Positions 27,769 through 39,263 of a stretch of DNA of 64,000 nucleotides are shown piece after piece. Every line of letters starts with the position of its first letter. The first letter of the stretch is position 1. The DNA comes from Candidatus Thalassarchaeaceae archaeon (GTDB lineage: Archaea; Thermoplasmatota; Poseidoniia; Poseidoniales; Thalassarchaeaceae), in NCBI GenBank assembly GCA_023268715.1, contig JALRLV010000008.1, positions 1-64,000 on the forward strand, read 5' to 3'. Position numbers and translations under genes: made by a program. The notes beneath the pieces are model-generated. The model searched no databases. It saw only the letters and a list, made by a program, of their open reading frames with translations, and was not told where the DNA came from.

Positions 27769-29013
27769 TTACGAGATTATGCCTTGTATCGCCTGTACCA
27801 ATGAAAAATCGTCTTCTATTTCTTGGATTCTTCCATCATCGTGAACTATTCTAGCTCTCACTTTACTTGGGTCGTTCATTTCTTCCATCAAATTGGCAAC
27901 AACCGCGTTAACTCCATACCGTTCAATTTGTGCCTCTGCCCTAAGAATCAGAGTGTCTAATTCTACATCGGTTTCTAACTTGAATCCTATACGGATCGAA
28001 TCTCCAACTAGATCCCTTAATTCTTCGATGTGTTTCCTTCCTGGGTTAAGATTTAGTTGCCAATTATCTTGGCCGCTTGGCTTCTTACCCTGTTCTGGCT
28101 CTGTGAAATAATCCAAAACTGCTGCGGCATGGATCCATACGTCGGGTTTTGACTCCGTGGCTATTTCCTTGCATAATTTAAGCATACCATCTGGGGTCCC
28201 ATCCCTTAACACGTTCGGAAGGGAAAATGAGGGACTAGCAGATGTTTTTCCAGCGATACAAATAACATTATGACCCATACGATGAAGATACTCAGCAATA
28301 ATCCAGCCTGTTCTACCTGATGATGCATTTTGAATGGCTCTAACTGCATCAATTGGCGCCCTATTAGCCCCCATTGTAATAGCAACTAATTTTGAGGATT
28401 GGGATCTATTTGCGATATGACAAACCTCAGCGACAATGGATATTGGATCTGGTTGTTTCAGTTTGCCTTCTTCTATTTCGTTAATTATCACATGGCTACC
28501 TTCGTCGCGTAATGCATCGAGAAGTTCAGTAGTTACCGGATCATCGAATAAATCAGTGTGCATTGATGGGACAAAGCAAAGTGCCGATTTACGACCCCTG
28601 CTTGCGGATAGAGCCATCATCAAAGGTGAGTCCATTATTCCGTGTACGTGCTTTGATATTGTATTCCTTGTAGCAGGTGCAATTAGTGTTACATCAAAGT
28701 CATCTAACTGGGACATCTCACTAGCCCATCCTTGATGGACTATTGTATCGGAGCCCCAACTCACTGCAAGGGGGGTGATTATCTTCGTTGCTTCCTCACT
28801 CATAATCACCGTCAAATCGGCTTGATGCCTGCGTAACTCCCTAGCTAACCTCACAGATTCAACAGCAGCAATCCCCCCGGATATTGCCAATAAGACTCGT
28901 TTTCCGTGTAAAGCATCGCTATGGATTGCGACGCCGGTGTCCCTTGTCACAAGAACTACGAGTAGTATGTCATTCAAGAGTGCGTCGCCGACCGTTTGAG
29001 TCTTAGATGACAA
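27769..29013 (-). CDS. coaBC: Bifunctional phosphopantothenoylcysteine decarboxylase / phosphopantothenate-cysteine ligase
   Basis: VLLAISGGIAAVESVRLARELRR, LIAPATRNTISK, NASSGRTGWIIAEYL, HAAAVLDYF; real start probably internal. Confidence 0.9.
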   Translation of the reverse strand: MSSKTQTVGDALLNDILLVVLVTRDTGVAIHSDALHGKRVLLAISGGIAAVESVRLARELRRHQADLTVIMSEEATKIITPLAVSWGSDTIVHQGWASEMSQLDDFDVTLIAPATRNTISKHVHGIMDSPLMMALSASRGRKSALCFVPSMHTDLFDDPVTTELLDALRDEGSHVIINEIEEGKLKQPDPISIVAEVCHIANRSQSSKLVAITMGANRAPIDAVRAIQNASSGRTGWIIAEYLHRMGHNVICIAGKTSASPSFSLPNVLRDGTPDGMLKLCKEIATESKPDVWIHAAAVLDYFTEPEQGKKPSGQDNWQLNLNPGRKHIEELRDLVGDSIRIGFKLETDVELDTLILRAEAQIERYGVNAVVANLMEEMNDPSKVRARIVHDDGRIQEIEDDFSLVQAIQGIIS

Positions 29014-29028
29014 TACATTCCCAGAATC

Positions 29029-29586
29029 GTGAGTGATTTAGCGGCCAACGACCTGATACGAAGGTTGGCAATATTTGGTGCCTTGAATTTACTGATTTTA
29101 ACTCTAATTTTGGCATCCGTATCAGGGAATGGAAATGAAATATTTCTAGGATTTATACTCGGACTGGGTTTGTTATTGCTTTTTTTTGGAACCATAGTAA
29201 TAGTTGGTTTTTTTCAGAAAAAAAATGGATACGATGTTAGATTAGCGAACTTAGAACAATTTCTTTCTGTAATTTTCCTTTCCGTTGGGTTAATTCAGAC
29301 AATAGTTGGATTAATCGCTATTGAAATATTTCTCATCACACAGGGCTTATTGCTTGTTTTACTCGGCAACTCCACACGAAAACGCGTATCTACTATTAGG
29401 AATCCACAATTTATCGATTGGTATACTAAGGATAAACCATCAGATGTAACGTTGAGGACTGAAGAAGTATACGCTTCCTGCCCACATTGTAGTAGTCTAT
29501 TGGCAGTTATTCCTAATTTATTAGCGCCGCATGACCGTTGTCCCAATTGTGATGGATTACTAGTTAGTTCGATTGAGGAAGAATGA
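29029..29586 (+). CDS. Hypothetical membrane protein with C-terminal zinc ribbon
   Basis: Four hydrophobic segments; CPHCSSLLAVIPNLLAPHDRCPNC. Confidence 0.75.
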   Translation: MSDLAANDLIRRLAIFGALNLLILTLILASVSGNGNEIFLGFILGLGLLLLFFGTIVIVGFFQKKNGYDVRLANLEQFLSVIFLSVGLIQTIVGLIAIEIFLITQGLLLVLLGNSTRKRVSTIRNPQFIDWYTKDKPSDVTLRTEEVYASCPHCSSLLAVIPNLLAPHDRCPNCDGLLVSSIEEE

Positions 29587-29587
29587 T

Positions 29588-30844
29588 TCAATATCTCTCA
29601 AGAGCAGTCGCGATACCCATTCCCCCACCAATACACATAGTAGCCACAGCCTTTTCTTTACCCGTACGGTTGAGAAGTGATGCGGCTTTACAAGTAATCC
29701 TAGCGCCAGAAGCACCTAATGGGTGACCGAGTGAAATGGCTCCACCATCAAGATTAATTTTCTCCATATCAATGCCTAATTCATCAATACATGCTAAACT
29801 TTGAGATGAAAATGCTTCATTCAATTCCCAAATATCTACATCCTCAATAGACCACCCAGCTCTTTCAAGACATAGCCGAGAAGAGGCAATCGGACCCAAA
29901 CCCATTAGTTCCGGAGGGCATCCAGTTACTGATGTGGAAACTATTCTAGCAATTGGATTCAGATCATTTTCTATAGCAAAACTTTCACTGCAAATTATGC
30001 AGAAAACTACACCATCAGTCAATGGTGATGAAGTAGCCGCTGTTACTGTACCGGATTCTTTGAAAACCGGATTTAATCCAGCCATTGACTCAAGTGTACT
30101 CGACGGTCTAATACAACCATCAGACTCAATATTTTCTTCTCCATGAACTATTGGGCAAATTTCGTTTTCAAAATTACCTTCTAATTGAGCCGCATGTGAT
30201 TTTTCGTGGGAAGAAAGAGCAAATTTTTCTTGACGAATGCGACTTATTGAATACTGCTCAGCGACGTTTTCGGCTGTAATTCCCATGTTGATGTAGGCTT
30301 CTGGATATGATTCTTCTAATCCTGGATGAGGGGACCAATTGAAACCCCTCCTCTTTACCCTAGACATTGACTCCATACCCCCAACGAGGAAACAATCACC
30401 AGAACCTGTGGCAATCTTTCCTGCGGCCACATGTATAGCCTCCATTGATGAGCCACACAATCGATTGAATGTGGCACCTGGTACATTATCGGGTAATCCG
30501 CTTAGAAAAGAAACTAGCCTTGCTACATTGTAACCTTGTTCACCTTCTGGGTAAGCACATCCAAGCAAGAGATCGTCAATTTGTTCTGCTAGAATGTTAT
30601 TTCGAGACAATAGGGCTCTAGCCACTTGACCCGCCATTTCATCCGGTCTAACATCCTTTAGAGCCCCCTTGTGCGCCCTATGGAAGGGCGAGCGCATCCA
30701 ATCAACTATGACTACATCCACGATACTCGGCCCGCTATTCGCCCAATAACCATTGAGATAGTGACCTGACAATGTGGTTAGTTGACCGGCGGGTTCATGA
30801 AAGAAACGTAAGTCGCGCGAATCAATGATACGAGAATGCTCCAA
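29588..30844 (-). CDS. Acetyl-CoA acyltransferase (thiolase)
   Basis: NRLCGSSMEAIHVAA, ELNEAFSSQSLACIDELG, GGAISLGHPLGASGAR, TMCIGGGMGIATALE; true start possibly GTG at 30721 (VDVVIVDWMRSPF), which would remove overlap with kptA. Confidence 0.93.
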   Translation of the reverse strand: MEHSRIIDSRDLRFFHEPAGQLTTLSGHYLNGYWANSGPSIVDVVIVDWMRSPFHRAHKGALKDVRPDEMAGQVARALLSRNNILAEQIDDLLLGCAYPEGEQGYNVARLVSFLSGLPDNVPGATFNRLCGSSMEAIHVAAGKIATGSGDCFLVGGMESMSRVKRRGFNWSPHPGLEESYPEAYINMGITAENVAEQYSISRIRQEKFALSSHEKSHAAQLEGNFENEICPIVHGEENIESDGCIRPSSTLESMAGLNPVFKESGTVTAATSSPLTDGVVFCIICSESFAIENDLNPIARIVSTSVTGCPPELMGLGPIASSRLCLERAGWSIEDVDIWELNEAFSSQSLACIDELGIDMEKINLDGGAISLGHPLGASGARITCKAASLLNRTGKEKAVATMCIGGGMGIATALERY

Positions 30845-31511
30845 TCACGGATTCTATGCAGACGACCACCTCTGCCCTGCTTGTAATGCAGAGGGCAGAT
30901 TTATCATGAGAACTGGCGAAAGAAATAGCCTTGCTAGGAAACTAGCATTGGTTCTTAGGCATGCGCCAGAAAAATTTGAGCTAGAAATGGATATTAACGG
31001 TTGGATAGATGTTAAGGATATTATTCGTCAATTCAAGAAAGGTGGCAAAAGATTCCATTGGTTGAGACCACACCATTTCACAGCAATAGCAGAAACTGAT
31101 CCAAAAGGAAGATACGAGGTACGTGGAAACACTATCCGTGCGACCTATGGCCACACGGTTGAAATCGAGCTAGATCTACCCACCGATAACATACCAGATG
31201 CACTTTATTTCCCATGTGACCCAGAACAAGCAGAGAACTTGCTTGAAGTTGGTATTACACCTAGCGGAAGGGCACATGTTCACCTATCAGCAACGATTAG
31301 GAACGCTGCAGAGGCCGGCCACGTCCATTTCAAATTACCAACAATATTAGAGGTAGATACGGCGCAAATGTATGCTGCAGGTGAGACTATTTGGCACGCT
31401 GGAGTGACAGTCTACTTGACTGAAAATGTACCACCTCAATACCTGAGTGTTGTGGATAACGATGACCCGGAATATGTCTTGGCTCGGGCACGATGGCAAG
31501 AAGAAGAGTGA
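30825..31511 (+). CDS. kptA: RNA 2'-phosphotransferase (Tpt1/KptA) with N-terminal zinc finger
   Basis: CSNHGFYADDHLCPAC; LARKLALVLRHAPEKFELEMDINGWIDV; IRATYGHTVEIELD; GRAHVHLS. Confidence 0.92.
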   Translation: MIRECSNHGFYADDHLCPACNAEGRFIMRTGERNSLARKLALVLRHAPEKFELEMDINGWIDVKDIIRQFKKGGKRFHWLRPHHFTAIAETDPKGRYEVRGNTIRATYGHTVEIELDLPTDNIPDALYFPCDPEQAENLLEVGITPSGRAHVHLSATIRNAAEAGHVHFKLPTILEVDTAQMYAAGETIWHAGVTVYLTENVPPQYLSVVDNDDPEYVLARARWQEEE

Positions 31512-31513
31512 AT

Positions 31514-31837
31514 TTACTGATATTCACCACACAAAGGGCAGAACTCTAAGTCGCCTGTAAGGTCGGCTTCACAATTATTGCATATTCCCGTAATAGAACT
31601 TACAGGCTTTACTTCGGATTCATTAACTGCACGTACGGGTTGATCACGTGTCACAAATGGGTTAGCAACTGCCTTTTGAACATTAATCGCTTGTCTGAAG
31701 TTAATACATTCTTGTATCGCATTTTGAATCCTATTCGAAGTTCGTAATCTTTCTTCTACAGATTCAATCTTCTCCGAATCCGCGAGTCTACTTTGTAACC
31801 AACGCTGGAATCTGTCTAGTTCGCCTTCAGCAGTCAT
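31514..31837 (-). CDS. Small hypothetical protein with C-terminal zinc ribbon
   Basis: MTAEGELDRFQRWLQSRL...ICNNCEADLTGDLEFCPLCGEYQ; internal Met at 31837 likely the start (track ORF to 31885). Confidence 0.7.
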   Translation of the reverse strand: MTAEGELDRFQRWLQSRLADSEKIESVEERLRTSNRIQNAIQECINFRQAINVQKAVANPFVTRDQPVRAVNESEVKPVSSITGICNNCEADLTGDLEFCPLCGEYQ

Positions 31838-31948
31838 GTTTGTCGGAAAGGTCGGTGAGCAATGAATCTGACTTAATGGAAACATCTATCATTCATCCAA
31901 TTTATCGGATAACACAAAATGTCTAGTGCCTTGGCCAGCGCGTAAACT

Positions 31949-32740
31949 ATGGCCCATATTCTAATGAAATATGGTGGTGGATTAATCACCACCAAGTCCC
32001 AAATGAAGACCGTAGATAGAGATGCTATATCGAAACTTTCCCGAATCGTTAGCGAATTATCTGGACTCGGGCACAAGGTTACAATAGTACACGGGGCAGG
32101 TTCTTTTGGTCATCTCAAAGCCAAACAATGGAATATTGCCAATGGTGCCCAAGAAGACATCATCGAACAACAAAAAGAGGCAGTCAATTCTATCCGAGAA
32201 GACATGTTGCAATTGAATACCGAAGTTTGCAATTCTTTGTCTAATCACGATATAGAATCCAAAAGTTTCCCTCCCTCTGACTGGGCGAGAGATACTGGAG
32301 CGGATTTTTCCGGAGATTTATCCCCAATCGAAAATTGTTCCGAAGGAGTAGTACCAATCACGTTTGGTGATGTCGTAGATTGTAGTCCTCCAAAATTATT
32401 CGGAATTTTATCCGGAGATGATTTGATGGTAAGGATAGGTAAAGAAATACCAGGAATTACACATTGCATATTCTTGTTAGGAGATACAGAGGGTTTACTC
32501 TCAGCACCCCCCTCTGACCCAAATGCAGCATTGATCCCTGTATGGAAGAAGGATCAGGAAGTATCTGGTGAACATGACACATCCCAAGATGTCACAGGTG
32601 GTATATTCCTAAAATTAGAGTCCGCATCCATGATTTCCACGATAATTCCGAATGTTTGGTTTATCGATGGAAGAAAACCAGAGAGGGTTATCGAATTGCT
32701 GAAAACTGGTACAACAAGAGGCACTCAGATAGTGCAATGA
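31949..32740 (+). CDS. ipk: Isopentenyl phosphate kinase
   Basis: LMKYGGGLITTKS, TIVHGAGSFGHLKAKQW (catalytic His), VTGGIFLKLESA; amino-acid-kinase fold. Confidence 0.9.
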   Translation: MAHILMKYGGGLITTKSQMKTVDRDAISKLSRIVSELSGLGHKVTIVHGAGSFGHLKAKQWNIANGAQEDIIEQQKEAVNSIREDMLQLNTEVCNSLSNHDIESKSFPPSDWARDTGADFSGDLSPIENCSEGVVPITFGDVVDCSPPKLFGILSGDDLMVRIGKEIPGITHCIFLLGDTEGLLSAPPSDPNAALIPVWKKDQEVSGEHDTSQDVTGGIFLKLESASMISTIIPNVWFIDGRKPERVIELLKTGTTRGTQIVQ

Positions 32741-32799
32741 TGTCTGATTAGTACTCTGATATTCCATTTCGATTATATGGTTAATGCTTTTCAAAAGGA

Positions 32800-34497
32800 T
32801 TGTTTGGTATGGTCGTGCCTTCAACTCCCTTAGATGGTCTAGATTTATCACAAGCCGAAATGATGCAAGAATTGGTTCTTTGTCTAGACTCGGACGATAA
32901 TGTGATTGATAGTTCCAGCAAATTCACAACACATCATGGAGAAGGAATTCTTCACAGAGCATTTAGTGTACTGATTTTCGATAGTGAAGGTAGATTATTA
33001 GTGCAACAGAGATCTTCAGACAAAATCACATTCCCAGCAGTTTGGGCTAACTCCTGTTGTAGCCATCCGCTTGACATTGATGGAGAAAATGATGACCCAA
33101 TTGAAGGTGTGATAGAAGCAGCAAGACGGAAATTAGACCAAGAGCTTGGGATTCCAAGAACGATTACAAACGATTGGAAATTCCACCATATTGGAAGATT
33201 TGAATACAAATGCCGATGGGATTCGGATTGGGTAGAGCACGAAATCGACCATGTTCTAATCGTAGAGGCTGATTGTGAAGTAGATTTCAATCGAAACGAG
33301 ATTCAGTCCATTGACTGGCTAGACAATGATTCTTTAATCCAAATGATGGAAAGGAAAGGAAGATGGAAAAGTCAGTTGGTCGCACCATGGTTTGAGGCTA
33401 TTTTCAATAATTATCTTGGGGCTGGTGATTTTTCTGTCGATGGACTTATTTCCAATAAAAGCTCAGAAATTTTCAGGTGTGGAGACTTGACCGTTCAACA
33501 TCCTGAAAATTCTGCGAGTAATGTACTAGCAGCATTGAGTCAGCATAAGGAAATTGTTGAGGAAATTATACAAGAAAACCTATCAAAAATTCAACAAGAA
33601 CGACTACGAGGGGCGATGTCTCACCTTTTTACTGGTGGAGGCAAACGATTACGTGCAATTATGCCAAGACTGGTGGGGGACGCTGTTGGAAATGGACATC
33701 AAGGGCATTATACCCTAGGCGCATGTATCGAAATCATTCACAATTTCACTTTGGTTCATGATGATATAATGGACCAAGACCCGATTCGCAGGGGCTTGGA
33801 TGCTGTACATGTCGCATACGACGACCCTACAGCGATAAATGCTGGAGATGCAATGTTAGCGCTCGGGTTTGAAATGCTAGCTGATAGTACGAATATCCAG
33901 GATTCTCAACTCAGACATGTAGTAAGCGCGATCGGGCAAATGGTACGAAATGTAGCTGAAGGTCAACAAGAAGATTTTGAATTCGAGGATAGAGATTCGG
34001 TTTCCGAAGAAGAATATATCTCCATGATTGCAGGGAAGACTAGTGCAATGTTCGAAACATGTGCAGAAACTGGTGCTATTCTAGCAGGCGCGGATAGTGA
34101 AACTGTTGCAAATATGGCAAATTGGGGTCTTAATTTAGGACTGTGCTTCCAAATAATGGATGATTATATTGACATGACTAGTGATACGGAAACCCTAGGT
34201 AAACCAGCCGGAAGTGATATTGTCCAAGGTAAGAGAACTCTGATTGCCATTCATGCTTTGGAAAGCGGTGCCGATTTGCCTACGTTTCACAAATTGTTCG
34301 GTACTGAATCAACAGATACTTCGGAACTTGCTGTCGCGGTGCAAGAATTGAATGACAATGGTTCAATACAGTATGCTCTGGATAGGGCAATGGAACATCA
34401 CAGAATGGCTCACGGATGCTTAGACAAATTAGATCAGACACCTGCTGTAGATTTACTACGGGATATGACCGACTTCCAATTGGTAAGAATCAATTGA
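32800..34497 (+). CDS. Fused type-I isopentenyl-diphosphate isomerase (Nudix) + polyprenyl (GGPP-type) synthase
   Basis: N-terminal half: FPAVWANSCCSHPL and GVIEAARRKLDQELGI (Idi1 Nudix, catalytic Cys). C-terminal half: GGGKRLRAIMPRL, LVHDDIMDQDPIRRG (first DDxxD), FQIMDDYIDM (second). One uninterrupted 565-codon frame. Confidence 0.94.
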   Translation: MFGMVVPSTPLDGLDLSQAEMMQELVLCLDSDDNVIDSSSKFTTHHGEGILHRAFSVLIFDSEGRLLVQQRSSDKITFPAVWANSCCSHPLDIDGENDDPIEGVIEAARRKLDQELGIPRTITNDWKFHHIGRFEYKCRWDSDWVEHEIDHVLIVEADCEVDFNRNEIQSIDWLDNDSLIQMMERKGRWKSQLVAPWFEAIFNNYLGAGDFSVDGLISNKSSEIFRCGDLTVQHPENSASNVLAALSQHKEIVEEIIQENLSKIQQERLRGAMSHLFTGGGKRLRAIMPRLVGDAVGNGHQGHYTLGACIEIIHNFTLVHDDIMDQDPIRRGLDAVHVAYDDPTAINAGDAMLALGFEMLADSTNIQDSQLRHVVSAIGQMVRNVAEGQQEDFEFEDRDSVSEEEYISMIAGKTSAMFETCAETGAILAGADSETVANMANWGLNLGLCFQIMDDYIDMTSDTETLGKPAGSDIVQGKRTLIAIHALESGADLPTFHKLFGTESTDTSELAVAVQELNDNGSIQYALDRAMEHHRMAHGCLDKLDQTPAVDLLRDMTDFQLVRIN

Positions 34498-36705
34498 TCA
34501 ATCAGTATAGTTTGCCTCGCTAGGAACTTCAGCCTTGAGGCCTTTTCTTTCCCGGATTTCCCCTACTGTTTTCTCGAATAGAGAAATCGGTAGCATTTCA
34601 AATCCTGCATTTTCTGTATTCCAAACTGCTCGACCTTGGCTAGCAGCACGAATGTCGTTAGAGAAACCAAAAGTCTCAGCAACGGGCATCTTTCCAATTA
34701 CAGAAGCCGTTCCACCGTCAACAGGCATATCCTCAATGATTCCCCTTCGGTTGGTAACTTCTCTTGTAACACCTCCAATAACATCGTTTGGCGCGTCTAC
34801 GCGAATATTCTGCATTGGTTCAAGAATAACAGGTCTTGACCTGATTAGAGCTCCCTTGCAGGCATTTCTTACTGCTGGAATAGTTTGAGCGGGTCCTCTG
34901 TGAATCGCGTCTTCGTGTAGTTTAGCATCCACTAGTCGCATCATAACTCCCATCATTGGTTCTTCTGCGACAGGGCCTTTCTTACATACTTCGTTGAATC
35001 CTTCAATAATTAGTTCCCGAGTTTCGTGTAGGTTTTGAATACCCTTTGTATCATTGACCAAGACATTAGTACCATGAATGGCGTAAATTTTCCTCATTAG
35101 GTCTTTATCCATACCATATTCTGCAAATCTATCGCCCACCTGCTTTGCGTCTTTATTTCTGACGGCACCGTCACCAAATACACCTTCTCGGAGGGCTTGT
35201 ATCACCTCTAGAGGTAGTGGTTCTGCCTCAATGTAGAATCTGTTGTGTCGGTTGGGCGACTTTCCTTCGAATGCACGACCGCTGTTGTTTGATTCAATTG
35301 ATTCTCTGTAGACAACTATTGGTTCGCTAACTTTTACCTTAATTCCTTGTTCTTCTTCCAGCCTATATACGGTTATCTCAAGATGCAACTCACCCATACC
35401 TGCAAGCAAAGCCTCACCAGTCTCTTGGTTAGTTAAAACCTGTAGGGAAGCATCAGACTTAGCTAGGCCGCGAAGAGCATCGATGAACTTGGGTAAATCT
35501 TTCATAGCCTTGGGTTCAACTGCTACTGTTACAACCGGTTCTGAATAGTGACGAATTGCTTCGAATGGTTCTGCATCCTTGTCACGGGAAATGGTCACAC
35601 CAGCAGCCGCGCTTCTGATACCCGTAATTGCAGCTATATTTCCTGCGGTTACAGCGGGTACCTGGATTCGATCTCCACCGACCATCATTGCTACCTGTTG
35701 TACTCTTTCTGCCTTGCCGGCTCCAATCGCCCAAAGTGATTCTCCATGTTTGACGGAACCTGAGTAGACACGCCCCACTGCGACTTCTCCTGCATGTGGA
35801 TCCATCCATATTTTCGTAATCATCAACGATAGTGGACCTTCAGCGTCACACTCCATCATTGCTTTACCTTCCGGAGTCTCCAAATCTCCTTGCCAGATGT
35901 TTGGTATACGATATTTCTGCGATACTGCCGGAGAAGGTAGTGTCTCAACTGCCATGTCTAGGAGAACTTGGTGGACTGGGGCTTTCTTTGCTAGACCCTT
36001 CTGATCATCAGCGGCACAATGTTCGAATATATCTTTGAAATTGAGGCCAGATTTTTGCATGTACGGAACAGACATACCCCAATTGTAGTACGCAGACCCA
36101 AATGCAACAGTACCGTTCTGGACAGAAACCTGCCAATCTTTTCTTACGTCTTCAGGGGCGAAAGTCTGAATCAATTTGTTAACCTTGACAATGACTTTCT
36201 CAAATCTAGCCATCATTTCTGGACCATCTATTTGTAGCTCATTGATTAGACGGTCAACCTTGTTGATGAAAAGAACTGGGCGTACCTTTTCTTTCAATGC
36301 CTGGCGGACAACCGTCTCAGTTTGTGGCATTGTACCTTCTACAGCGCAGGCAAGAATGATACAGCCGTCTACGGCTCTCATGGCACGCGTAACGTCGCCT
36401 CCGAAGTCAACGTGACCTGGGGTATCGATGAGGTTGATGAGATAATCTTCATCGCCTACTTTGTGGACCATCGAAGCACTAGCGGCATTGATTGTAATTC
36501 CTCGGGCGCTTTCTTGTTCATCGAAATCCAATACTCGAGATTTTCCAGCTAGGTCTTCTGACATCATGCCTGCCCCCGCGATCAAGTTATCGGAAAGAGT
36601 AGTTTTTCCGTGGTCAATGTGAGCTGCTATCGCTAGATTCCTTATTTTGTCTTGCTGGTGCATGACTTCAGTAGCCCTTGCAATATTGTCTTCCTTACGA
36701 CCCAT
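34498..36705 (-). CDS. fusA: Translation elongation factor 2
   Basis: AAHIDHGKTTLSDNL, DTPGHVDFGGDVTRAMR, FINKVDRL, diphthamide loop LHEDAIHRGPAQ. Confidence 0.97.
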   Translation of the reverse strand: MGRKEDNIARATEVMHQQDKIRNLAIAAHIDHGKTTLSDNLIAGAGMMSEDLAGKSRVLDFDEQESARGITINAASASMVHKVGDEDYLINLIDTPGHVDFGGDVTRAMRAVDGCIILACAVEGTMPQTETVVRQALKEKVRPVLFINKVDRLINELQIDGPEMMARFEKVIVKVNKLIQTFAPEDVRKDWQVSVQNGTVAFGSAYYNWGMSVPYMQKSGLNFKDIFEHCAADDQKGLAKKAPVHQVLLDMAVETLPSPAVSQKYRIPNIWQGDLETPEGKAMMECDAEGPLSLMITKIWMDPHAGEVAVGRVYSGSVKHGESLWAIGAGKAERVQQVAMMVGGDRIQVPAVTAGNIAAITGIRSAAAGVTISRDKDAEPFEAIRHYSEPVVTVAVEPKAMKDLPKFIDALRGLAKSDASLQVLTNQETGEALLAGMGELHLEITVYRLEEEQGIKVKVSEPIVVYRESIESNNSGRAFEGKSPNRHNRFYIEAEPLPLEVIQALREGVFGDGAVRNKDAKQVGDRFAEYGMDKDLMRKIYAIHGTNVLVNDTKGIQNLHETRELIIEGFNEVCKKGPVAEEPMMGVMMRLVDAKLHEDAIHRGPAQTIPAVRNACKGALIRSRPVILEPMQNIRVDAPNDVIGGVTREVTNRRGIIEDMPVDGGTASVIGKMPVAETFGFSNDIRAASQGRAVWNTENAGFEMLPISLFEKTVGEIRERKGLKAEVPSEANYTD

Positions 36706-36756
36706 TCTATCAACCTCTGGATGGCTCGGCGACCTGACATCGGTTCATAAAGCCGA

Positions 36757-36777
36757 TTGTATCACTACGTGATACAA
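36757..36777. repeat. Perfect 9-bp inverted repeat TTGTATCAC-TAC-GTGATACAA
   Basis: Arms 36757-36765 and 36769-36777; lies between rpS7 stop and EF2 start (upstream of EF2). Confidence 0.85.
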
Positions 36778-36809
36778 GTCTGGATGATATACTGAGAGAA
36801 ATGTTCAGA

Positions 36810-37424
36810 TCATCGAGCAGATGCTGCGATGCGCTCTATCTCGTCTTTTTTGCCTACAGCGAACGAGGCAACATCCCCTGCTGCTGCTTTATTTAGTTCG
36901 GAGATTATCCCCTGAGTTAGAGTACGTGTGCTCTTTGCAGTGGCTGAGGCACATCCTTTCGATAAGTTGCGTAGAGCGATATCTAATCTGCGGCTTGGAG
37001 ATGAATCTACGGCCTTAGGTTGACTTACTGCACCGAACTTGATTCTAGTAGTCTCTTCGCAGGGAGCGGAGTTTACAATTGCATCAATGAAATGCTGTAG
37101 CGGATTTTCTCCAGTTCGCTCAGCGATATTGTCTAGCGCAGCCTCGAAGGCTTTAGCACAGTGTTGTTTCTTGCCACTAAACTTTCCAGTTCGCATTAGG
37201 TTGTTGATGAATCTTTCAATGACGGAAAGCTTTGACTTCCCGAACCAAGCATTAGCATGTCTACCGCCACTGTGCGGGGTACCAATAGTTGTGAGGTTGA
37301 TGTAAGGAGCTAGACCGGGGTCGCCGCAAACCACTTCCTGAGCGTCCCACTTACTGAATACCATGGTACCAATACCGGCGATTGGTTGAGCCTGTTGAGT
37401 TTCTTCCTCTGACATGCTGATCAC
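36810..37424 (-). CDS. rps7: Ribosomal protein uS7
   Basis: [73 protein letters not shown]. Confidence 0.95.
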
Positions 37425-37861
37425 CTTACTGGTTTCTCCTTGCGACCGCGAACCATTTCATCTAAAGATACGCCATTTACCTTGATTACTTTGAATCTAA
37501 CACCAGGTAGGTCACCATACGATCTTCCCATTCTTCCACCGATACCTTCCACGAGGACTTCATCGTGTTCATCAATGAAGGAAATAGCCCCGTCTCCCGG
37601 TGCAAAGGCTGTTAATTTGTTGCCTGTTCGAATTAAGGATATCTTGACTGCTTTACGAATACCTGAGTTAGGTTGTTTAGCTTCGATACCAACCTTCTCA
37701 ATCACAATTCCCTTTGCTTGGGTAGACCCTCGTAGAGGATCATGCTTGAGAACACCGCCTTGGCGCCTCTTGGTTTCTCGGTTCTTGAATTTCCTTTCGT
37801 TCCAGCGAAACTTCTTACGATCCTTCTTCATCTTTGGTCCAGAGAACAATCCACGACCCAT
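37421..37861 (-). CDS. rps12: Ribosomal protein uS12
   Basis: [77 protein letters not shown]; internal Met at 37861. Confidence 0.96.
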
Positions 37862-37961
37862 TACAATCACCTCGAAGGAACGCCCCGCCGACCTACCCAC
37901 CATATAAGAGCGTGACGGACTCACCAAAGGTGAGGGAGCAAGTGGCTTAACCTCGCTAACA

Positions 37962-39263
37962 TTGAAGCACGGCGTGCGTCGGGTCGTTCACATGGCCTTT
38001 AGGGACCTGTTGGCTGGGGCTACTGAAATTAACGATGAAATCAGCGTCAATCATGACATGTTGTATCATTCAACATCCATAGACCACAAGGCTATAGTGT
38101 TCAATAATATATCAGAAGCAAAGGGCCTACGTTCCGCAATTAATGTACTAGCACGAGACCGACTATGTTCTATTTTTGATATAACACCAGGAGAACTAAT
38201 TGACACATTGGCGTGGGCAATGGAAAACCCACAAGAACCTGAGATCACTACTCCAGAAAATAGTCCAGTTTTTGAAAATACACAAGATGTTACAGATTTG
38301 ACCAAGATTCCCATCCCATGGCATTATCCCGAAGACAGGGGAAGGTATCAATCAGCATCTGTAATAATCGCGGAATATGATGGAATCCGAAACATGTCAT
38401 TTCACAGACAATTCCTTCGGGATGGTAATCATTGTGTTTCTAGGTTTGTACCCCGCCACCTTCGAACAATGACGGACAAAGCCAGGGAAAATGGTGATGA
38501 GATTAATATCGCCGTTGTAAATGGCCCCGATGCAACTGTCTTGCTTGCAGCGGCAATGTCATTCACCCATGATTTGGACGAATTAACGGTGGCTGCCGCA
38601 TTACACCAAAGATTGCATGGCAAACCACTCGAATTAGTAAGTCTACCAAATGGCATACAGGTTCCAGCAGATTCCGAATTTGCGATGGAAGCAAGGATTA
38701 CATTACAAGATGATGCTGAAGGACCATATGTCGATATTACTGGTACCGTTGATGATGTAAGACAAGAGCCACTTATCGAATATGATGCCGTGCATCACAG
38801 GAATCAAGCCGTATTTCATGCTCTGATTCCGGCAGAAGTTGAACATAGAACTCTGATGGGACTTCCAAGAGCACCCACTATCAAAGCCGCAGTAAACGCA
38901 GTAGTCCCCTGCACTGATGTATACATGACTGACGGGGGTAGCGGTTGGCTTTCAGCAGTAGTTGCCATAGAACCACAAAAACAAGGTGATGGGGTAGCGG
39001 CTATTCATGCCGCTTTAGGGGGTCATGGGTCTATGAAGCAAGTAACAATAGTAGATACTGACATAGATTGTTCTAACCCAGTAAGAGTGGAATGGGCTTT
39101 GATGACGCGTTGGCAACCCGACAAAGATACTGTTATCCTATCTAAACAAAAGGGCTCGAGTTTAGACCCGTCTAGAGATGAAAACGGTCTAACTAGTAAG
39201 ATTGGAATCGACGCTACGTTACCACCAGATATCGAACGAAAGCCCTATGAGAGCGTACTATGA
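37962..39263 (+). CDS. UbiD-family decarboxylase
   Basis: [59 protein letters not shown]; UbiD family, substrate not determined. Confidence 0.88.

Follow-up and report, generated by a model that had tools for sequence, protein, structure and literature searches.

The fusion gene and its neighbours

The window, the whole stretch of 64,000 nucleotides analysed here, comes from a Candidatus Thalassarchaeaceae archaeon. Positions 32800–34497 of its forward strand form a single open frame of 565 codons plus stop. TTG 32800 is a possible start codon of this frame; ATG 32809 is the likelier one: AAAGGA precedes it by 9 nt, and sequence similarity to close relatives sets in at residue 3 or 4. The gene would then occupy 32809..34497 (+). 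By its sequence the frame is a type I IPP isomerase (IDI1) and a geranylgeranyl-diphosphate synthase (GGPPS) in one chain. The isomerase domain together with its own C-terminal tail (residues ~11-230) is encoded at 32830..33489, a short linker (residues ~231-240) at 33490..33519 and the synthase domain (residues ~241-565) at 33520..34494, all on the + strand. The N-terminal domain scores 139.6 bits against TIGR02150 IPP_isom_1 (curated cut-off 105.8) and matches the Pfam family NUDIX at 7.5e-13; the C-terminal domain matches polyprenyl_synt (PF00348) at 3e-67. The preliminary description had reported both enzymes on one polypeptide in an unbroken frame, with the motifs NSCCSHPL, DDIMD and DDYID, and an isomerase of a type unusual for archaea; the open frame, the profile matches and the motifs all bear this out.

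The gene for isopentenyl phosphate kinase (IPK; 263 aa, 31949..32740, +) adjoins the fusion upstream, as had also been noted; the gap between them is 59 bp if the fusion starts at TTG 32800 and 68 bp if it starts at ATG 32809. Its product scores 159.8 bits against NF040647 IPPK_Arch (cut-off 120) and matches the solved IPKs 7lnt, 3lkk and 3ll9. IPK is the same-strand upstream neighbour in 59 of the 60 fusion loci with enough upstream sequence, and a convergent EF2 gene follows the fusion in 61/63 loci. The gene order DFP-thiolase-KptA-IPK-IDI1/GGPPS-EF2-S7-S12-UbiD, found in the window at 27769-39263, is conserved across the order Poseidoniales. The UbiD-family decarboxylase gene (37962..39263, +; PF01977/PF20696), which is syntenic with the fusion across the order, is a candidate for an anhydromevalonate-phosphate decarboxylase supplying isopentenyl phosphate.

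The archaeal modified mevalonate route leads to isopentenyl phosphate (PMC10040528). AcnX (phosphomevalonate dehydratase) was found in 34 of 39 relatives and this, together with the UbiD gene in the window, makes an isopentenyl-phosphate route plausible. Such a route can, to judge from the genes present, lead to isopentenyl phosphate, IPP and then GGPP in the fusion. IPK would convert isopentenyl phosphate to IPP; the metal-dependent Nudix-type isomerase domain would turn part of the IPP into DMAPP primer, to which the C-terminal all-trans prenyltransferase domain would add three IPP, yielding GGPP (C20) for ether lipids. Bifunctional IPP-to-GGPP synthesis by the fusion appears very likely. 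We infer that both domains are active and that the product is GGPP, and likewise the supply role and the sequence of events set out below. The large part and the swivel small part of AcnX are themselves joined in one 599-aa frame (L176:1582-3378; G000:C11:118581-120377), and AcnX frames of similar length (about 540-640 aa) recur across the order; the Aeropyrum phosphomevalonate dehydratase consists of two subunits (PMC10040528).

Linker, synthase and isomerase

An AlphaFold2 model of the fusion built on a 66-row alignment has a mean pLDDT of 92.2 and a pTM of 0.69. The linker (block pLDDT 65) is the sole low-confidence stretch between the domains; the domain orientation is thus not fixed, and their relative placement in the predicted model is uncertain. 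In both domains dN/dS is about 0.03-0.06, indicating strong purifying selection, and in the tail and linker (206-240) it is above that of either domain.

What the shared chain provides is probably only co-expression at a fixed stoichiometry, without kinetic coupling of the two domains, an arrangement compatible with bifunctionality. The short low-confidence linker and the unfixed orientation (pTM 0.69) are consistent with this. GGPPS enzymes are usually homodimers, and the fusion may just put two isomerases on each dimer. Unfused overlapping pairs already give co-expression; however, the fused form is retained almost order-wide, with the unfused state in one genus only, which hints at a benefit beyond co-expression. 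Fixed stoichiometry or a local supply of DMAPP is a plausible benefit. Direct channelling, in which DMAPP would pass from the active site of the isomerase straight to that of the synthase, is rather unlikely. The two steps are consecutive, lie on one chain and have been kept together order-wide, but the predicted structure gives no support for facing active sites, and IPP would still enter from the bulk three times per GGPP.

The best solved sequence match of the C-terminal domain is the archaeal GGPPS 5jfq (6e-62), to which Foldseek also aligned the synthase half of the predicted model with a TM of 0.94 of target. The first Asp-rich motif, DDIMD (33760..33774, +), retains D321, D322 and D325 in 87/87 distinct fused proteins. 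The second, DDYID (34159..34173, +), retains D454 and D455 in 87/87 and D458 in 86/87, the sole exception being an Asp-to-Glu change. The two motifs and the all-alpha fold are those of the short-chain trans-prenyl diphosphate synthases of PF00348. In archaeal GGPP synthases chain length is linked to position -5 relative to the first Asp-rich motif, and Phe there predicts a C20 product. This bulky residue is present as Phe316 in 86/87 distinct fused proteins, the other one having an unread residue. None of the narrow NCBIfam GGPPS/IdsA equivalog models was passed (best NF040698 IdsA_Meth, 279.5 against 468; NF041003, 256.4 against 500), so we only infer GGPP as the product, a prediction of length from one determinant residue and homology. 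In the second prenyl synthase of the genome the -5 residue is Ala, as long-chain enzymes typically have, and the fusion is probably the only C20 synthase of the cell. A C15, C25 or mixed product is decidedly unlikely. Few residues set chain length, archaeal synthases of this family vary and the equivalog scores lie below cut-off; against this, Phe stands at -5 in every readable fused protein, archaeal GGPP synthases are the best matches in both sequence and structure, and the other synthase of the genome looks long-chain.

Human IDI1 is the best solved sequence match of the N-terminal domain (7e-39), and Foldseek aligned the isomerase half of the predicted model to human IDI1 2i6k with a TM of 0.88 of target. 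The catalytic residues Cys87 (33058..33060, +) and Glu148 (33241..33243, +), which align with E. coli Cys67 and Glu116, are invariant in the 87 distinct fused proteins (87/87 each). The same holds for His45, His52 and Glu146 (87/87), and His89 is kept in 86/87, with an unread residue in the remaining one; in the alignment these four correspond to E. coli H25, H32, E114 and H69. The domain therefore has the catalytic Cys and Glu of IDI1, and its metal ligands, three His and a second Glu, are likewise present.

The type II isomerase (IDI2, TIGR02151) passes its cut-off in 131/194 genomes of the phylum, which is 131/141 of those outside the class Poseidoniia. A separate idi2, raised in the preliminary description as a possible functional isomerase, has no match in the window's own genome, and the profile exceeds its cut-off in 0 of the 53 Poseidoniia genomes tested, where the strongest match is 5.7e-8; incompleteness of MAGs could hide single cases, hardly all 53. 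IDI1 was detected in all three Poseidoniia families. A second IDI-like Nudix protein (C11) was rejected as an isomerase; SVSGHV stands where IDI1 has its catalytic Cys, and the Nudix box is still of the hydrolase type. On sequence grounds the N-terminal domain is the only credible IPP isomerase of the cell. That it is instead a dead or regulatory Nudix domain, with isomerisation done by something else, is very improbable. The Nudix box is degenerate relative to hydrolases, but this is normal for IDI1, and the second Nudix protein of the genome lacks the catalytic Cys. Also against inactivity, which the preliminary description had itself considered, are the retention of Cys87, Glu148 and the other metal ligands throughout, the low dN/dS of the domain and the absence of IDI2.

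Poseidoniales, which are uncultured, rank with the most abundant archaea in surface seawater; their membrane lipids are disputed (PMC6962369, PMC6461757). Their C20 chains are probably started by a metal-dependent isomerase and not by the flavin enzyme usual in archaea. The fusion is also a candidate for a natural catalyst that would produce GGPP with IPP as the sole substrate.

Distribution and origin of the fusion

The sample comprised 390 genomes of the phylum. Families f1 and f2 make up the window's order Poseidoniales (Marine Group II), with 127 genomes; f1 is Thalassarchaeaceae and f2 appears to be Poseidoniaceae. The other family of the class Poseidoniia (f3, a sister order) is probably Marine Group III. 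Counted from the search table, 113/127 Poseidoniales genomes encode both domains in one frame. Among the other 14, 11 are without the gene or have it cut at contig ends, one is apparently frameshifted and two, of genus g20, are truly unfused. Database records named Thalassarchaeum, Thalassarchaeaceae, Poseidoniales and Marine Group II also carry the fusion. The survey proposed in the preliminary description thus found the architecture, but not as a one-off: it is nearly order-wide, unfused precursors exist and a plasmid carries an independent fusion.

The chance that an assembly or frameshift artefact joined two genes is negligible: the genes are separate and overlapping in relatives, but the same single frame occurs in those 113 genomes from many projects, no frameshift was found between the domains in close relatives, and the architecture in dozens of independently assembled genomes together with strong purifying selection on both domains rules out assembly error. 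No match was found in IMG/VR, and phage carriage was rejected, the listed phage-collection matches covering the synthase half only. One contig titled Pedosphaera sp., a bacterium (L081, NYYT01000056.1), has the full Poseidoniales order DFP-thiolase-KptA-IPK-fusion-EF2-S7-S12-UbiD; the contig is misnamed or misbinned.

In 7 of the 8 loci examined for IDI2 in other Thermoplasmatota, the gene order is IPK, IDI2, GGPPS, with the genes overlapping or almost touching; the eighth has IDI2–GGPPS with no recognised IPK beside it. Long open frames in other families (G347, G087, G213, G266, G027) were considered as IDI2–GGPPS fusions and rejected, the genes being separate, overlapping or adjacent. In f3 a stand-alone IDI1 takes the place of IDI2 and overlaps GGPPS, with an ATGA overlap in 4/5 loci; no IPK was found near IDI1/GGPPS in the f3 loci. 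In g20, within Poseidoniales, IPK, IDI1 and GGPPS are separate genes and the IDI1/GGPPS overlap is again ATGA. The tail of the free f3 IDI1 (…HHMGDCE, stop) can be matched by eye to the linker in fused proteins (…IHDMGDVS…), which indicates that the natural end of IDI1 was joined to the start of the synthase. In the ancestor of Poseidoniia an IDI1 gene would thus have replaced the flavin-dependent IDI2 gene beside GGPPS, giving an IDI1/GGPPS pair with an ATGA overlap that was later fused at the natural IDI1 C-terminus. Replacement of IDI2 by IDI1 in place, with fusion afterwards, is likely. Living relatives still show the swapped isomerase, the overlapping genes and the fused gene side by side, which makes the successive steps of a non-homologous replacement and gene fusion traceable and testable. 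We consider it highly probable that the protein serves the archaeal mevalonate route as a bifunctional enzyme, one that arose by replacement of IDI2 with IDI1 beside GGPPS and subsequent fusion.

In an EF2 tree rooted on f3, all sampled fused lineages form one clade with g20 and f3 outside it (support 95/100); the same fused clade was recovered with other sampling (85/100). The most parsimonious account is one fusion after the g20 lineage had diverged. A later split of the gene in g20, or two fusions, may instead have occurred, since a clade of f2 including g20 is not rejected on EF2 (AU p 0.26) and the enzyme's own tree does not resolve one fusion event from two.

The synthase half looks native; its best matches outside the order are from other Thermoplasmatota. 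The IDI1 of Poseidoniia scores 137–171 bits against human IDI1 and 47–60 against enterobacterial IDI1. Small trees, with one eukaryote only and too thin for donor or direction, group Poseidoniia and human IDI1 against bacterial IDI1 (98/98) and, with haloarchaea included, at 89/83, where one haloarchaeal row (L228) is a wrong-frame ORF on a very long branch. A more extended proposal is unlikely: that the fusion works as one kinetic unit, its synthase being primed with DMAPP from the attached isomerase domain before that DMAPP can escape, and that IDI1 moved between eukaryotes and the Poseidoniia ancestor, displacing the flavin enzyme in place, with the unfused intermediates living on in Marine Group III and one Poseidoniales genus. 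A few other Thermoplasmatota without IDI2 (L152, L153 (G040, G101), L154 (G037)) have a stand-alone IDI1 that falls outside the Poseidoniia/eukaryote group; these are separate replacements.

Archaeal IDI1 was recorded earlier in haloarchaea and Thaumarchaeota and ascribed to transfer from bacteria (PMC3533463). No IDI1 fusion was evident in Halobacteriota, where IDI1-like matches occur in 63/295 genomes, none of them reaching the cut-off; the frames concerned span 169-515 aa, most being close to 200 aa long. Three of these haloarchaeal proteins (L219, L222, L237) read GTVASHP at the catalytic Cys site; with Cys replaced by Ala, their isomerase activity seems doubtful.

Related systems

The closest solved relatives of both halves are stand-alone enzymes. 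Human and other eukaryotic IDI1 is nearest to the isomerase domain in both sequence and fold; the archaeal GGPP synthases of Geoglobus (5jfq) and Pyrococcus (1wy0) are nearest to the C-terminal domain but start from supplied DMAPP. The archaeal IPK–IDI2–GGPPS string of other Thermoplasmatota has the same three functions, adjacent and in the same order; it differs in using the non-homologous, flavin-dependent type II isomerase and in being made as separate proteins.

Searches of the open-access literature, covering papers on Poseidoniales genomes and a survey of archaeal mevalonate pathways from 2024 (PMC6336850, PMC6461757, PMC6962369, PMC11052028), turned up no mention of the Poseidoniales fusion; an earlier report may exist elsewhere. 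The diatom Phaeodactylum has a natural IDI–squalene synthase fusion, PtIDISQS (PMC12168105), which likewise joins an IPP isomerase to a later isoprenoid enzyme in one chain. Its partner is squalene synthase and not a DMAPP-using chain-elongating synthase, whereas the partner here belongs to PF00348 and is not of the diatom squalene-synthase type; PtIDISQS is also eukaryotic and a separate event.

Another natural IDI fusion is the plasmid protein WGP08112.1 (L239:4983-6614; CP123774.1, recorded as Bacillus subtilis DK01), a 543-aa chain with NUDIX and polyprenyl_synt domains that is annotated only as idi. It has IDI1 followed by a prenyl synthase, the same domain order as in Poseidoniales. Unlike the Poseidoniales enzyme, its IDI part groups with bacterial IDI1 and its occurrence is scattered, not clade-wide, and we take its origin to be independent. 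Its gene neighbours are UbiA, another prenyl synthase and an FAD monooxygenase, which suggest a prenylated secondary metabolite; the host name Bacillus subtilis may be wrong. On a plasmid of Arthrobacter sp. StoSoilB13 (L240:2989-4664) a stand-alone IDI1 overlaps the next prenyl synthase frame, a precursor-type arrangement like that of Marine Group III.
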